From positions 1 through 52,041 of the forward strand of contig JAJPIT010000119.1 in NCBI GenBank assembly GCA_021324615.1: a DNA stretch of 52,041 bases, read 5' to 3'. Positions 34,934-40,117 of this stretch are shown one piece after another. A program made the translations under genes and the position numbers. Each line of letters begins with the position of its first letter. Positions within the stretch are counted from its first letter, which is position 1. The notes below the pieces were generated by a model that saw only the letters and a program-made list of their open reading frames with translations, made no database searches and was not told the origin of the DNA. This DNA is from Terriglobia bacterium (GTDB lineage Bacteria; Acidobacteriota; Terriglobia; Bryobacterales; Bryobacteraceae).

Positions 34934-36331
34934 TCACGGTGGAAGCGATTTCCGGATTTTCTCGCGGTATTGAGCGGCTTTGGCGAGCACCGCCGCCTGG
35001 TCCAGGGTTAACATCTTGCGATCCCGCACGATGAGCCGCCCGTTCACCATCACGTCGGAGACGTCGGAACCCTGGAGCGAGTAGACAAGCTGCGAATAGA
35101 CGCTATAGAGCGGCGCGGCGTGCGGGGCGCCAAGGGAGATCTCGATCAGGTCCGCGCGCTTGGAAGGCTCGATCGACCCGATCATTTGTTCGAGTCCGAT
35201 GGCGCGGGCGCCGGTAATGGTGGCCATGGCGAAGGCTTCTTCGGCGGGAAGGGCGCGCGGATCGCCGGCCGCGACTTTTTGCAGCTTCGCCGCCAGATCG
35301 ATTTCGCGCATCAGATCCTGATCATTGTTCGACGCCGCGCCGTCCGTGCCCAGGCCCATCGCAATTCCCTGCCCCAGAATTTTCACCACAGGCGCGATCC
35401 CGCTGGCCAGCTTCATGTTGCTCGAGGGATTGTGCGCCAGCCCCACGCCGCGGGCTTTGAGAATCTTTAAATCCGCGTCGCTGAGCCAGACTCCGTGCGC
35501 GGCGATGGTCCAGCCGGCGAACACCCCCATCGCATCGAGCGCGGCGGCCGGCGTCATCTTGTATTGGGCCAGCGCGTCCTGGTTTTCTTTTTTGGTTTCC
35601 GCCAGATGGATGACCAGCGGGCGATGGTAACGGTCGGCCAGCGCCCGGGCCCGCTTCAGGGTGTCCTCGGAGTTGGTGTAAATTGCGTGCGGGGCCACGG
35701 CGGGGATAATCAGCGGGTCCTGGGAGAATTCGCGGAAAAATTTTTCGGTGGCGGCCAGCGAGTCGGACGGCGTTTTGTAATCCGGCGCGGGGAATCCGAT
35801 GATGGTTTGGCCCAGGATTCCGCGCATTCCCGCTTGTTTTGCCACCGCCGCGATGGAGTCCTCGAAATAGTACATGTCGACAAACGTGGTGGTTCCGGAA
35901 AGCGCCATTTCGAGGCAGGACAGGCGGGCTCCCCAACGGACGAAATCGGCGTCGACGTTCTTGGCTTCTGCCGGGAAAATGTAATGCTCCAGCCAGTCCT
36001 GCAAGTCGAGATCGTCGGCCACGCCGCGGAACAGCGACATCGGCACATGCGTGTGCGCGTTGATGAGGCCGGGCGCGAGAATTGCATCGGGGCGATCCAA
36101 CCGTTGTTTCGCCTGCCAGGCGCGGTCGATTTCGGCGCGCGGCCCCACGGCGGCGATGTGGTCGCCCACGATCGCGACGGCGCCGTTTTCGATGACCCGG
36201 CGTTGCGGGTCCATGGTGACGACATAGCGTGCGCTCCAGATCCAATCGGCGGGGGCGGCGCAGCTTGCCACCGCCGCCAGCAGCAGGAACAGCGTTAAGC
36301 GCGCGGCCCGATTATTTGAGGAACGATGCAT
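34934..36331 (-). CDS. Lipoprotein amidohydrolase (MTA/SAH deaminase-like)
   Basis: A 465-residue metal-dependent hydrolase of the amidohydrolase superfamily, close to the chlorohydrolase/5'-methylthioadenosine and S-adenosylhomocysteine deaminase group. Metal and catalytic motifs are intact: NAHTHVPMSLFRG (HxH), APHAIYT, VIHLAET and GLGTDGAASNN (catalytic Asp). The N-terminus has a signal with a lipobox (LAAVASC), so it should be lipid-anchored outside the cytoplasm, unlike the usual cytosolic deaminase. A few other amidohydrolases with this layout act on unrelated substrates, so deamination of nucleosides is only likely. Its start lies 20 bases inside the cytidine deaminase gene, so the two are translationally coupled. 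Confidence 0.86.
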   Translation of the reverse strand: MHRSSNNRAARLTLFLLLAAVASCAAPADWIWSARYVVTMDPQRRVIENGAVAIVGDHIAAVGPRAEIDRAWQAKQRLDRPDAILAPGLINAHTHVPMSLFRGVADDLDLQDWLEHYIFPAEAKNVDADFVRWGARLSCLEMALSGTTTFVDMYYFEDSIAAVAKQAGMRGILGQTIIGFPAPDYKTPSDSLAATEKFFREFSQDPLIIPAVAPHAIYTNSEDTLKRARALADRYHRPLVIHLAETKKENQDALAQYKMTPAAALDAMGVFAGWTIAAHGVWLSDADLKILKARGVGLAHNPSSNMKLASGIAPVVKILGQGIAMGLGTDGAASNNDQDLMREIDLAAKLQKVAAGDPRALPAEEAFAMATITGARAIGLEQMIGSIEPSKRADLIEISLGAPHAAPLYSVYSQLVYSLQGSDVSDVMVNGRLIVRDRKMLTLDQAAVLAKAAQYREKIRKSLPP

Positions 36332-36701
36332 CGAAGGGTCTTGGAAAGAGTTCAGCCAGCCGCAGCGACTCCCGGTATCCTTGAAGATTTACGAGAACGA
36401 TCTCGATATCGCCGCAGAATTCCCATAAAATCTGCCGGCAGGCGCCGCAAGGAGGGGTCAGGTCGGCGGTGTCCGCCGCGATGGCGATGCGGCTGAACCG
36501 CCGCGCGCCTTCGGAGATGGCCTTGAAGACCGCGATTCGCTCGGCGCAAACCGTGAGGCCGTAGGTCGCATTTTCGACGTTGCAGCCGGTGTGGACGCGC
36601 CCGGAGGAGTCTTCCAGCGCGGCGCCTACGCGGAATTGCGAGAACGGCGCGTGGGCAAATTGGCGGGCCGCGACCGCCGCGGCGCAAAGAGCGTCACTCA
36701 T
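36312..36701 (-). CDS. cdd: Cytidine deaminase
   Basis: A 129-residue tetrameric-type cytidine deaminase converting cytidine or deoxycytidine to the uridine form in nucleoside salvage. The zinc ligands Cys52, Cys85 and Cys88 and the catalytic Glu54 are all visible (VCAERIAVFKA and PPCGACRQ), and CNVENATYGLT is characteristic. The ATG at 36701 overlaps the stop of the upstream GEFT-repeat gene (ATGA); the longer frame upstream is shadow. It overlaps the amidohydrolase start at its other end. Confidence 0.95.
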   Translation of the reverse strand: MSDALCAAAVAARQFAHAPFSQFRVGAALEDSSGRVHTGCNVENATYGLTVCAERIAVFKAISEGARRFSRIAIAADTADLTPPCGACRQILWEFCGDIEIVLVNLQGYRESLRLAELFPRPFDASFLK

Positions 36702-37822
36702 TTCCTTTGCGCCACCATCGCCAGCAGCACAAACATCGCCAGCAGCAACAGGGCCGCGCCGACGCCGGCCGCGACCATCCATGCGCGCCGGGCAGCGGGA
36801 ACCGGAACGGGGGTGACCGGCGGCGGAGGGGGCGGCGCCTGAGGCGCGGGCCGCGGATCGCCAGGCCGTCCGATCAGCCTGGTGTATTCTCCCGGGGAGT
36901 TTTCCGCGGGCGCTTTCGCCGGCTCCGGAGCGGAAGGCGCCTTGAAGATCCCGGAGGCGCTGCCGATGGTCAAAGGGCGCGGCGGCGCCTGCGGACCTCG
37001 CTGCTGCGGGCCGAAGACGCGGGTGAATTCGCTGGGTTTCGGAAACGGGCGGCTCTCCGGTACGGCCGACTGCGCCGCGCGGGCTTGTTCCTGTTCGATG
37101 TCGATGGACTCGCCCGAGGGTCCCGATCCGAACAGGCGGGTAAACTGTCCGGTCTCCGGAAGCGGTGGAGTGCTGGGCGCCGGGGGTGGAACGGCCGCGG
37201 GCTTCGCCGCCCCGAACATCCTGGTGAATTCGCCCGGGGTCTGCGGCGCGGGCGCTGCGGGCGGCGGAGATGGCCCCGGAGCGGATCCGAAAAATTTTGT
37301 GAACTCGCCCTGGGTCTGCGGCGCGGGCGCTGCGGGCGGCGGAGACGGCCCCGGAGCGGATCCGAAAAATTTCGTGAATTCGCCCTGGGTCTGCGGCGCG
37401 GGCGCTGCGGGCGGCGGAGACGGCCCCGGAGCGGATCCGAAAAATTTCGTGAACTCGCCCTGAGTCTGCGGCGCGGGCGGCGGGGTGGCGGGTTTGGGGG
37501 CTCCGAACAGTTTTTCGAACTCATCGGAAGCGGCGGCCGGGGCGGGCCGTTCCAGCCATTCCCGCAAAGTGCGAAACGGCGTAAACGCCTCGGTCACCGC
37601 GTAAGGCGCGCCCGCGAACTCGCCCAGCTCGATCAGCGGCGGCGACGGCCTGCGCGGATCCTGGGCCAGGCGGGCTTTCAAACCGGCCAGCAGGTCCTGT
37701 CCCTGGGATTGGAACATGTGCAGAAGCACCGGCCGACCGGTGGCATTTTCCTTGGCGCGGAAGGTTTTGACTTCGCCGTCGGCGATGAGGCGCTCCAGTT
37801 CGTACTTGCTGTAAAAACTCAT
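36698..37822 (-). CDS. Tail-anchored protein with kinase N-lobe-like domain and GEFT[RK]xFG repeats
   Basis: A 374-residue protein that I cannot assign to a characterised family. Residues 1-92 look like the N-lobe of a protein kinase (glycine-poor, YELERLIADGEVKTFRAKE..GRPVLLHMF, then LIELGEFAGAPYAVTEAFTPFRTLREWL); the lysine position is His35, and no C-lobe follows, so it cannot be a kinase. Residues 93-345 are a Pro/Ala-rich linker with eight copies of an eight-residue motif: DEFEKLFG (100), GEFTKFFG (122, 147, 172), GEFTRMFG (197), GQFTRLFG (225), SEFTRVFG (264), GEYTRLIG (311). Residues 347-370 are a transmembrane helix near the end, so it is tail-anchored with the bulk in the cytoplasm. 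It starts an overlapping operon with cytidine deaminase and the amidohydrolase. Confidence 0.88.
   Translation of the reverse strand: MSFYSKYELERLIADGEVKTFRAKENATGRPVLLHMFQSQGQDLLAGLKARLAQDPRRPSPPLIELGEFAGAPYAVTEAFTPFRTLREWLERPAPAAASDEFEKLFGAPKPATPPPAPQTQGEFTKFFGSAPGPSPPPAAPAPQTQGEFTKFFGSAPGPSPPPAAPAPQTQGEFTKFFGSAPGPSPPPAAPAPQTPGEFTRMFGAAKPAAVPPPAPSTPPLPETGQFTRLFGSGPSGESIDIEQEQARAAQSAVPESRPFPKPSEFTRVFGPQQRGPQAPPRPLTIGSASGIFKAPSAPEPAKAPAENSPGEYTRLIGRPGDPRPAPQAPPPPPPVTPVPVPAARRAWMVAAGVGAALLLLAMFVLLAMVAQRK
37241..37465. repeat. Three near-identical 75-bp tandem repeats within the GEFT-motif gene
   Basis: Units begin at 37241, 37316 and 37391 with the same 75-base period (25 codons), followed by a partial fourth at 37466. 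The copies differ at only a few bases (for example GAGATGG against GAGACGG). They encode the GEFTKFFG motif plus a Pro/Ala linker and indicate recent duplication or homogenisation. Confidence 0.95.
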
Positions 37823-37916
37823 CGCGGCTTGCCGTCCATTGTTTGTCGCACAATCCTGGGCTGTAGTATCATGATGCCAATTTGTATCCGGAAGTCAAAC
37901 AAGCGTGCGGGTGCGG

Positions 37917-38190
37917 ATGAGGAATCTGTCCAGAGTCGTGTGGTCGGAGGGGATGTATATCGCCCCGCATCATTTTCAGGCGCAGAACCGCTATTTCGAA
38001 GACTCGGTGCAGAACGACTGTTCGTGCCGAGGCTGGGGGGCGCGCCTTGCCGGGATTGAAACTGTCGCACCTTCCGGCGCCGGCCGGCGTTGTCGACGAA
38101 GATCGAACTTCGCGATCGACAAATCGGGCCCGTGCCGGGAACGCAGGGTGAAGACGCGGAAAGGCGACGACTACATTCCGGGCGAACTGT
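37917..38190 (+). pseudogene. tssK: Decayed tssK (type VI secretion baseplate) remnant
   Basis: The first ~35 codons read as a normal TssK N-terminus (LSRVVWSEGMYIAPHHFQAQNRYFEDSVQ). The next recognisable pieces are in two other frames and match the TssK C-terminus: LPGLKLSHLPAPAGVV near 38048-38095, STKIEL near 38090-38107, and then FAIDKSGPC plus YIPGEL, back in the first frame, near 38110-38190. TssK is normally about 450 residues, so roughly 300 or more codons have been lost and several frameshifts have occurred. A downstream gene-like frame (38200-38310) is not recognisable. No other type VI genes are in the window. The 82 bases at 37823-37904 separate its start from the divergent GEFT-motif gene, and the remaining sequence to 38353 carries no gene. 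Confidence 0.8.
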
Positions 38191-38322
38191 GCCTGTTGTC
38201 GGCGCTGGCGCTGACCGTTTCGTTCTCCGCAACCACGCGCTGGAGCAGAGCGTCAGCGAAGCGGTGCGCAATCTGCCACCGCAGCGTGGATGGCGCGCGC
38301 GGATCTAGCCCGGCGGGCTGCG

Positions 38323-38353: not shown

Positions 38354-39229
38354 ATGCGTTTCCGCACCGCGCTGGCGGCGGGCCTGTTGGGATCGGCGGT
38401 TTGCCTGGGCCTGCTTGAAGCCCAAAAACCCTTCCAGCAGTATCCGGCGATTGAGTACGAAAATTTTCCGCTGCCGCCGGATTACAAAGATACGAATCAC
38501 GAATGGGTGCGGGCGCGGCTGCGTTATCCCGATATTTACGGCTACCCCAACGATTCGCGGCTGAGCCTGGGGCCTGGACGTCCCTGGCCAGGGCAGTGGA
38601 CCATGGATTATCCGCGCTCGGACCGCCATCTGCTGCAAGGCGTGCGGCGGCTGACGCGCATCGATACGCGGTCGGTCGAGCAGGTGGTGAGCCTGGACGG
38701 CACCGATGACATCTACAACTGGCCCTGCCTCTACGCCGTCGAAGTGGGCCACTGGCTGCTGCCGCCGGCGCAGGCCAGGCAGTTGCGCGAATATCTGCTG
38801 CGCGGGGGGTTCTTGATGGTGGACGACTTCCACGGCTCGGAGCCGTACCCGGATTTTCTCGGCCCGCTGAATGAATGGGAGACGTTTACCCGCAGCATGA
38901 CGCGCGTGTTCCCGGATCGTCCGATCGAGGAGATTCCCGACAGCGATCCGATTTTTCACACCCTCTACGATTTGCAGGACCGTTTCCAGGTTCCCGGCTA
39001 CGCCAATTGGATGGAAACGCACACTACCTACGAAAAAGGTCCGAGCGGCAAGCAGCCGCACTGGCGCTGCATCCGCGACGACCGCGGCCGCATCATCGTG
39101 GCCATTTGCCACAACATGGATCTGGGCGATGGCTGGGAAAATTCCGACGATCCGAAATACGCGGAGAAATGGTCCTCGCTCGCCTACCGCGTGGGCCTGA
39201 ACTATTTCGTTTATGATCTGACGCACTGA
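38354..39229 (+). CDS. DUF4159-family exported protein, copy 1
   Basis: A 291-residue protein with a signal peptide (residues 1-23, LLGSAVCLGLLEAQ). The body is a DUF4159 domain, which has a class I glutamine amidotransferase-like (flavodoxin) fold: DYPRSDRHLLQGVRRLTRID, then the strand-loop GGFLMVDDFHG and the end block HWRCIRDD..IIVAICHNMDLGDGWENSDDP. The role of this domain is unknown; it often occurs in proteins near MoxR/AAA or von Willebrand genes elsewhere, but no such genes are here. The next gene is a paralogue with the same layout, so the pair arose by tandem duplication. The first copy has an extra loop (Gly/Pro/Asp-rich, residues ~60-75) that is shorter in copy 2. Confidence 0.9.
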   Translation: MRFRTALAAGLLGSAVCLGLLEAQKPFQQYPAIEYENFPLPPDYKDTNHEWVRARLRYPDIYGYPNDSRLSLGPGRPWPGQWTMDYPRSDRHLLQGVRRLTRIDTRSVEQVVSLDGTDDIYNWPCLYAVEVGHWLLPPAQARQLREYLLRGGFLMVDDFHGSEPYPDFLGPLNEWETFTRSMTRVFPDRPIEEIPDSDPIFHTLYDLQDRFQVPGYANWMETHTTYEKGPSGKQPHWRCIRDDRGRIIVAICHNMDLGDGWENSDDPKYAEKWSSLAYRVGLNYFVYDLTH

Positions 39230-39263
39230 GGCGTCCCGCGGCGGCTCCCGGCCGGCGGCGACG

Positions 39264-39272
39264 TGTTATTCT
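39264..39272 (+). promoter_or_regulatory. Extended -10 element for DUF4159 gene 2
   Basis: TGTTATTCT, 17 bases before the ATG at 39290. It covers the in-frame GTG at 39263, which is therefore unlikely to be the start. Confidence 0.45.
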
Positions 39273-39289
39273 TCCTTCGAGGATTCGCG

Positions 39290-40117
39290 ATGCGCCTGAT
39301 CTCCTCGCTGCTGCTGCTGTTGGCGGGCATCGGTTTCTGGAGCGCCCTCCGCGCGCAGCGGCCCTTCCGGCAATACGAGGCGCTCGAATACGACGACTTT
39401 CCCCTGCCCTCCGATTATCAGAAACCCGCGGAGTGGACCCGCGCCCGTCTGCGCTACCCCGGCGTATTTCGCGGCTGGCGCGGCGCGGATCTGAGCTGGA
39501 CCACCGACTATCCCCGCTCGGACCGCCATCTGCTGCAAGGCGTGCGCCGCCTGACCCGTATCGACGCCCGCTCGGTCGAGCAGGTGGTCGATCTGGACGG
39601 CAGCGACGATATTTACAACTGGCCGATGCTCTATGCGGTCGAGGTCGGCCACTGGGCGCTGAACGAAGAGCAGGCCGCGCAGTTGCGCGATTTTCTTTTG
39701 CGCGGCGGATTCCTGATGGTCGACGATTTTCACGGCGACCAGCCCTATCACGGCGTCAGCAGCGAATGGCAGGTCTTCGTGGCCAGCATGAGCAAGGTCT
39801 TTCCGGACCGCCCGATTGAAGAGCTGGAAAATTCCAATCCGATTTTCCACACCATCTACGACCTGGATCAGCGCTTTCAAGTGCCCGGCTGGGGCGCCGC
39901 GCGGCGGGGCATCACCTATGAAGCCGGCGCCACGGGCATGACGCCGCACTGGCGGGCGATCTTCGATGACAAGCGCCGCGTGATGGTGGCCATCTGCCAC
40001 AACATGGATCTTGGCGACGCCTGGGAGTGGTCCGACGATCCGCGTTATCCGGAAAAGTTCGCCTCGCTGGCCTACAGGATCGCCATGAACTACTTCGTTT
40101 ACGATCTGACCCACTGA
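39290..40117 (+). CDS. DUF4159-family exported protein, copy 2
   Basis: A 275-residue paralogue of the preceding protein, with a signal peptide (ISSLLLLLAGIGFWSALRAQ). Conserved blocks are the same: YPRSDRHLLQGVRRLTRID, GGFLMVDDFHG, and ICHNMDLGDAWEWSDDP, and both proteins end NYFVYDLTH. The ATG at 39290 is chosen because GAGG (39279-39282) lies 7 bases upstream; the GTG at 39263 falls inside the -10. The function is unknown. It is convergent with the response regulator gene, 14 bases apart. Confidence 0.9.
   Translation: MRLISSLLLLLAGIGFWSALRAQRPFRQYEALEYDDFPLPSDYQKPAEWTRARLRYPGVFRGWRGADLSWTTDYPRSDRHLLQGVRRLTRIDARSVEQVVDLDGSDDIYNWPMLYAVEVGHWALNEEQAAQLRDFLLRGGFLMVDDFHGDQPYHGVSSEWQVFVASMSKVFPDRPIEELENSNPIFHTIYDLDQRFQVPGWGAARRGITYEAGATGMTPHWRAIFDDKRRVMVAICHNMDLGDAWEWSDDPRYPEKFASLAYRIAMNYFVYDLTH

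Follow-up and report, generated by a model that had tools for sequence, protein, structure and literature searches.

To our knowledge, the recruitment of the baseplate of the type VI secretion system (T6SS) to the membrane complex and the nucleation of firing sites remain open questions, studied mostly in Proteobacteria. In Acidovorax, PpkA is a binding partner of TssJ/L/M and of TssE/F and also forms condensates, as described in the consulted portion of PMC12607579, and the pseudokinase MviN possesses a phosphorylated tail and forms a back-to-back N-lobe dimer, as described in the consulted portion of PMC12599244. We analysed a gene located in a window of 52,041 nucleotides (the whole stretch of DNA under study, from a Terriglobia bacterium), the product of which, here called the array protein, joins a kinase N-lobe-like domain to an array of short motifs and a C-terminal membrane helix (Table 1). 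The conserved context of this gene is the T6SS, which was missed by an earlier note made from the letters of the window.

Anatomy of the array protein

A Pfam search with the 374-aa open reading frame (ORF) up to an E value of 10 yielded no matches, FHA domain included. The full-length AlphaFold2 model, built from 12 sequences, had a mean pLDDT of 62 and comprised a folded N-lobe and a single helix (residues 343-373), with a middle region of low confidence in blocks mostly of 45-62.

Table 1. Coordinates of the array gene, its parts and its neighbours in the window
Feature	Position	Strand	Details
Whole ORF of the array protein	36698..37822	(-)	374 aa; N-lobe, motif array and C-terminal membrane helix
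Kinase N-lobe-like domain	37538..37822	(-)	Residues 1-95; no C-lobe; His35 at the catalytic Lys position
Eight motifs of the form [GSD]-[EQ]-[FY]-[TE]-x-x-[FI]-G	36869..37525	(-)	Residues 100-318; Pro/Ala-rich disordered linker
75-bp tandem repeat	37224..37479	(-)	3.4 copies, 96% matches; yields three identical motif units
C-terminal membrane helix	36704..36796	(-)	Residues 343-373; predicted tail anchor (AlphaFold2)
Divergent intergenic region	37823..37913	.	Array gene to tssK remnant; within a block 82% identical to G010
tssK2 remnant	37914..38189	(+)	Two scraps: 37914-38011 (gene start, ~33 codons in frame) and 38015-38189 (late part)
tssM scrap	38192..38275	(+)	Matches L032:184-268
Cytidine deaminase	36312..36701	(-)	Local neighbour
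Amidohydrolase	34934..36331	(-)	Local neighbour; common only to L032 among the clustered loci

The earlier note had read the start of the protein as a truncated kinase N-lobe with His in place of the catalytic Lys and no C-lobe, a reading that was borne out, and the fold prediction that it called for returned a kinase N-lobe rather than a kinase-unrelated fold. An N-domain HMM from which kinases had been excluded picked up 11 Ser/Thr kinases among the examined stretches (E 5e-8 to 7e-4), and profile-profile comparison (hhalign) with nine kinases of these stretches gave a probability of 96.4 and an E value of 1e-9. AlphaFold2, run on the N-lobe with 27 sequences (pLDDT 81, pTM 0.68), predicted three strands, a helix and two strands (E7-14, E18-25, E31-37, H39-54, E63-69, E72-78), in the order beta1-beta3, alpha-C, beta4-beta5. 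A Foldseek search with this model gave a best E value of 3.3e-4 and eight matches below 0.001; 49 of the 50 matches listed were kinases by title, and the remaining one was a lanthipeptide synthetase, an enzyme that itself contains a kinase domain. TM scores by query length ranged from 0.46 to 0.58 among the matches listed, with some poor alignments (rmsd near 9). When PDB sequences were searched with the N-lobe profile, the matches were mostly kinases, none of them significant, the best being a kinase regulatory subunit (E 0.016), and Pfam Pkinase gave zero matches to 27 N-domains up to an E value of 1. A kinase-unrelated N-terminus is ruled out by the HMM, hhalign, AlphaFold2 and Foldseek matches to kinases, and these comparisons support a predicted protein kinase N-lobe fold, at residues 1-92, devoid of the catalytic residue and the C-lobe.

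Across 82 N-lobe domains, the catalytic Lys was replaced by His in 95%, the C-lobe with its HRD and DFG motifs was absent, Glu ranked below the top four residues at the alpha-C Glu position, and the Gly loop was lost. Arg10 and Asp76 of PknB are contacts of its back-to-back dimer; in the same domains the position aligned with Arg10 was Lys or Arg in 94%, that aligned with Asp76 was Glu or Asp in 96%, and that aligned with Leu33 was Thr or Ser in 93%. The equivalent Leu and Asp are described as important in the MviN pseudokinase (PMC12599244, consulted portion). Because the operon kinases conserve the basic and acidic positions just as well, the fold alone may account for their conservation.

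The earlier note had also described eight regularly spaced copies of GEFT[RK]xFG behind this domain. The count of eight stood under the broad pattern, with starts at residues 100, 122, 147, 172, 197, 225, 264 and 311, but the strict form GEFT[RK].FG fits four copies only, the variants being DEFEKLFG, GQFTRLFG, SEFTRVFG and GEYTRLIG; likewise, the spacing (22, 25, 25, 25, 28, 39 and 47 residues) is regular only in the first part of the array, which contains the 75-bp tandem repeat. In 20,000 shuffles of the window protein, the mean number of broad matches was 0.00035 and the maximum was one. With a pattern that left the Thr position free and fixed the second Phe, 584 motif instances were collected from 92 ORFs, in which this position was occupied by Thr (533), Glu (15), Asp (10), Ser (6), Ala (6), Met (4), Gln (3), Leu (3), Gly (2) or Asn (2), and never by Val or Ile. 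Thr, Glu and both Phe were nearly invariant, the second Phe being demanded by the search pattern itself. A motif DNA pattern applied to 13 genomes, narrow enough to recover only 1 of the 8 window copies, found all 43 of its matches inside array genes by coordinates, whereas its reversed control found none; the view that the motif is widespread in these genomes at large is not supported. In comparison with G010, dN/dS was 0.033 for codons of the motif (dS 1.35, saturated), as against 0.317 for the remaining linker and 0.151 for the N-lobe, values that span the time before the loss of the T6SS neighbours described below and so do not prove selection after that loss. The spacing of Phe (i), Met/Leu (i+3) and Phe (i+4) suggests one face of a helix; the helix that AlphaFold2 placed among the motif copies was weak and confined to the first copy.

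At the other end of the protein, the membrane helix that the earlier note had placed at the very end was recovered by AlphaFold2, and an apolar C-terminal stretch was present in 72 of the 75 homologues with an uncut C-terminus, which supports a predicted tail anchor. Only one residue follows the helix, and the protein has no periplasmic domain of the PpkA type.

Homologues and their type VI secretion context

Absence of such repeats from other genomes had been named in the earlier note as grounds for abandoning its reading; the search found them, and the neighbours of the repeat proteins, which it had also proposed to inspect, were mostly tssK-tssL-tssM genes of T6SS loci. A search with the window protein matched in 22 of 61 genomes, its own included. 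In a sample of 250 genomes of the order Bryobacterales, the N-domain profile matched 156 at an E value of 1e-5 and 126 at <=1e-9; the 30 weaker genomes (E 1e-5 to 1e-9) included true kinases, and after this was recognized the cut-off for the co-occurrence set was placed at 1e-9. Counting weak matches, the N-lobe occurred in 61 of the 84 genera of the order. Of the 396 genomes in a phylum sample, three belonged to the window's genus, and no further listed genome came from the order. The motif pattern matched 17 of these 396 genomes (18 matches, against one for the reversed control); on reading the loci, 16 of the 17 matches outside the window were not arrays, and the other, L089 (G333), proved to be a full homologue. 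Beyond the window's genus, the N-lobe profile matched 2 of the 393 phylum genomes, namely G333 and G173 from a single genus of another family, by which restriction of the protein to one order is ruled out. The tssK1-array-tssK2 layout of these two genomes (L209, L211) may reflect old inheritance or transfer. A literature search by title and abstract returned no paper on the array protein, and six motif strings occurred in none of the papers searched.

Linkage to the T6SS was assessed in 60 loci, which were the best-scoring listed places outside the genomes already examined rather than a random draw (G523:C489 and G596:C521, at contig edges, were passed over); the identity of tssK, tssL and tssM was established by Pfam on representatives. 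A script placed a divergent tssK2 within 1.5 kb of the homologue in 49 of the 60 loci and found none in 11; L138, missed because of an overlapping frame, was recognized by eye as a fiftieth case. Both tssL and tssM were also in the stretch at 47 of the 60 loci, and no T6SS genes were seen in the stretches of L121, L154, L162, L170, L174 and L175. Among the first 20 relatives' stretches, nine had a divergent tssK2 and one more had tssK1. Both homologues from outside the order lie between tssK1 and tssK2: in G333, VipB, VipA, tssK1 and the array gene are followed by divergent tssK2-tssL-tssM, and in G173 the array gene is located between the two tssK genes. By its conserved genetic linkage to core genes, the array protein is a candidate Tag-type T6SS accessory protein. 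Several clusters, including L038, L045, L047, L060 and L209, carry tssK1 and tssK2 as paralogues of different type flanking the array gene. Across the 250 genomes, and with no correction for phylogeny, 116 carried both the N-lobe and tssK, 10 the N-lobe only, 36 tssK only and 88 neither; G029 and G044 were scored as tssK only though both carry arrays (L059, L065).

In 26 of the 46 loci with enough sequence, the gene directly after tssM, in the same orientation, encodes a Ser/Thr kinase. The cluster of G481 comprises both tssK genes, tssL, tssM, VipA/VipB, two Hcp, ImpE, TssA, TssE, TssF, TssG, a ClpV-type AAA protein, VgrG and kinases; the genes scanned there included none with an FHA domain. 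FHA domains occurred somewhere in the genome in all 16 genomes searched, and none was encoded near an array in these 16 genomes, the closest lying ~21 kb (G035:C26) and ~29 kb (G020:C9) away on contigs that are fragmented. The partners listed in the earlier note fared accordingly: a secretion component is supported because the family belongs to T6SS loci, and an FHA protein is not matched by any gene near the arrays of these genomes. In G529, a kinase gene (L203:12149-13828; score 382 with a home-made model) is located between an array gene without an N-lobe and tssK2.

For 14 of the 36 genomes with tssK only, the stretches around tssK were read, and seven held motif arrays, of which five had no N-lobe in any nearby frame and two were cut by the contig end; no array was seen in the other seven stretches, three of which carry a different tssK type. 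The occurrence of array and helix without the N-lobe in five loci indicates that the array plus its anchor is the core of the protein and the N-lobe is optional. Array length also differed with the presence of tssK, the 62 uncut ORFs from tssK-positive genomes having a median of 7 motifs (3-13) and the 9 ORFs from tssK-negative genomes a median of 1 (0-4). Four of these nine were counted by hand (G003, G017 and G629, zero; G456, one, as GEFTRNY, for which the pattern gives 0), the single match of G025 falls inside the N-lobe, and G596, in which the array is cut by the contig end, was omitted. Motif-free paralogues from G000, G010 and G015 (L002, L030, and L025 with one variant) were omitted from the tssK-positive group, and each of these genomes also possesses an array gene. 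In G629, where tssL and tssM are kept but the tssK2 that would separate them from the homologue is gone, every motif has lost its intact form. Three good motifs are kept in each of G013 and G018 and four in G562 (79% complete), genomes in which no tssK was found; some partner may therefore exist outside the T6SS.

Homologues in other settings were also observed. A second group, some of it motif-free, adjoins group 1 glycosyltransferase genes (L035, L037, L043, L044, L046, L048, L002); in the first six of these loci the array genes adjoin glycosyltransferase genes away from the T6SS. In G456, an N-lobe is fused ahead of a full Ser/Thr kinase domain (L191:5315-7180), and the neighbouring gene (L191:7234-8199) encodes another N-lobe protein, which has a membrane helix and one motif-like GEFTRNY. 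In G049, where no tssK, IcmF or VipB match was found in the genome, an N-lobe precedes TPR, an apolar stretch and PEGA domains (L041:3784-6789).

The window itself retains only scraps of the T6SS genes beside the array gene, and no tssL match was found in the remnant region. The earlier note had placed the array gene at the head of an operon with the deaminase and the amidohydrolase: the stop codon of the array gene does overlap the likely deaminase start (ATGA at 36698-36701), but among the window and 20 relatives' stretches that were clustered, these neighbours recur only in G010 (L032), and the operon was rejected as the functional context. In G010 they lie on one side of the homologue, and the opposite side holds tssK2 and tssL in full together with the start of tssM. 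Two tandem DUF4159 genes (38354-40117, plus strand) lie directly after the scraps in the window. On C118 of the window genome (G000), tssK1 and a VipA-VipB fusion gene remain. This fusion of ~480 aa beside tssK1 (L053:4016-5455) combines a VipA-like part (PF05591, E 1e-9) with a VipB-like part (PF05943, E 1e-51), and L055:4877-6280 is the counterpart of this short second sheath-like fusion by position and VipB search. A second full-length VipB of G010 (C139) has no counterpart in G000. Another T6SS of the window genome, on C114, comprises TssK, PAAR, VgrG, a ClpV-type AAA protein, TssG, TssF, a gp25-type TssE, TssA, Hcp, VipA, VipB, TssM, PP2C and kinases; on this contig no TssL was identified and no array gene was seen beside the T6SS, and an array on every T6SS was rejected. 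Its PP2C, two Ser/Thr kinases and TssM are divergent from the sheath genes (L185:1915-11142). With tssK2, tssL and tssM deleted beside its gene, the array protein of the window looks, from its gene neighbourhood, like an orphan of its own T6SS, either idle or serving the remaining tssK1 module.

A proposed docking scaffold and competing readings

We consider it somewhat better than an even chance that the array protein is a membrane-tethered multivalent docking scaffold, accessory to a two-TssK T6SS, in which the motif Thr is a possible switch and the N-lobe would recruit a kinase. The C-terminal helix would anchor the protein in the inner membrane, and the disordered Pro/Ala linker would display in the cytoplasm usually 4-13 copies of E-F-T-x-x-F, perhaps as small amphipathic helices. 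Every copy may bind the same T6SS component, for which TssK or another baseplate component is a first guess, so that the array would gather many copies at the membrane complex, where the harpoon would be assembled. Phosphorylation by the Ser/Thr kinase that many of these operons encode could make the motif Thr a switch, and the N-lobe, where present, might recruit this kinase by back-to-back N-lobe contact; the five loci without an N-lobe indicate that such recruitment cannot be essential everywhere. The architecture of the protein, its T6SS linkage, the constraint on the motif and the dispensability of the N-lobe are in keeping with a docking scaffold. Weighing against it are the array genes beside glycosyltransferase genes, the loci without a divergent tssK2 and the motifs kept in genomes with no tssK found. 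The fully specified version, in which a membrane-tethered array of near-identical helical motifs serves a two-TssK T6SS, with no FHA gene found in its clusters, as a multivalent platform for baseplate docking and assembly, gated by Thr phosphorylation and with the stand-alone N-lobe recruiting the kinase, is tentative and on balance unlikely.

Alternatively, the array may be read by an FHA protein after the operon kinase phosphorylates the motif Thr, a possibility that we regard as doubtful. Thr is near-exclusive and Ser nearly absent at the motif position, a kinase is present in 26 of the 46 operons, and every genome searched encodes FHA domains. The second Thr of ETTSVFR in GarA is a PknB phosphorylation site. 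The motif has Phe at Thr+3, like the GarA phosphopeptide ending in this sequence (PMC5448819, consulted portion), and precedents are provided by mycobacterial PknB-MviN-FhaA (PMC12599244, consulted portion) and, for the T6SS threonine phosphorylation pathway, by the pairing of Fha with phosphorylated Thr14 in TssL (PMC3953482, consulted portion). However, 25 of the 51 non-Thr variants are Glu or Asp, at odds with the highly pThr-specific FHA pocket described in PMC3953482 (consulted portion), 20 of the 46 operons lack a kinase directly after tssM, and no FHA gene was found near any array in the 16 genomes searched. The Thr preference favours a phospho-switch, whereas the acidic variants and the missing FHA gene oppose a simple FHA reading.

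The array might instead form condensates, with Phe-rich stickers and Pro/Ala spacers at the membrane concentrating T6SS parts in place of Fha or PpkA, a reading that we judge improbable. The sticker-spacer layout, the predicted disorder, the usual copy number and the failure to find FHA genes near arrays in the 16 genomes or among those scanned in the G481 cluster are consistent with it, as is the formation of condensates by PpkA and Fha in Acidovorax (PMC12607579, consulted portion), but the near fixation of Thr, Glu and both Phe, the second of which is demanded by the pattern, goes far beyond what stickers need. Finally, that the protein is a remnant, a kinase minus its C-lobe retained by T6SS linkage with repeats grown by slippage, is very improbable: the tandem duplication, the deleted T6SS neighbours of the window and the eroded arrays of G629 and G025 would suit it, but not the low dN/dS at motif codons relative to the rest of the linker (in the comparison with G010, where motif dS is saturated), the retention of Thr in 462 of 509 distinct motif contexts, or an N-lobe so widespread among the genera, weak matches included.

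If the docking scaffold is correct, half a kinase would serve purely as a docking domain, with a kinase N-lobe surviving alone. A motif-repeating membrane tether in a soil lineage would also offer an experimental handle, in the form of bait peptides of ~10 residues, phosphorylated or not.

Comparison with known systems

As far as seen in the consulted portions of the sources, neither a half-kinase nor a motif array is present in the PpkA, Fha, TssL-Fha, MviN-FhaA and EssB/YukC precedents. The pseudokinase families of PMC12599244 are defined, in its consulted portion, by a whole degraded kinase domain, and the array protein, with an N-lobe only, falls outside them. MviN with FhaA (ActPs3 family) shares a dead kinase domain in a membrane protein (PMC12599244, consulted portion); MviN, however, has a whole kinase fold and no T6SS, whereas the array protein has the N-lobe alone. 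EssB/YukC of type VIIb secretion resembles it as a membrane-bound dead kinase acting as a secretion-system scaffold, but has a larger pseudokinase domain (residues 9-211) and belongs to another secretion system, and a motif array is not mentioned in the consulted portion of PMC12599244.

By their defining features, the array protein belongs to neither Fha/TagH nor PpkA. It shares with Fha/TagH the proposed gathering of T6SS parts at the membrane complex (PMC12607579, consulted portion) but lacks an FHA domain, is membrane-anchored and carries the motif array. With PpkA of the T6SS threonine phosphorylation pathway it shares a kinase-derived N-terminal domain, a single membrane helix and a T6SS locus; in place of the C-lobe, catalytic Lys and periplasmic domain of PpkA, however, the array protein carries a long motif array.
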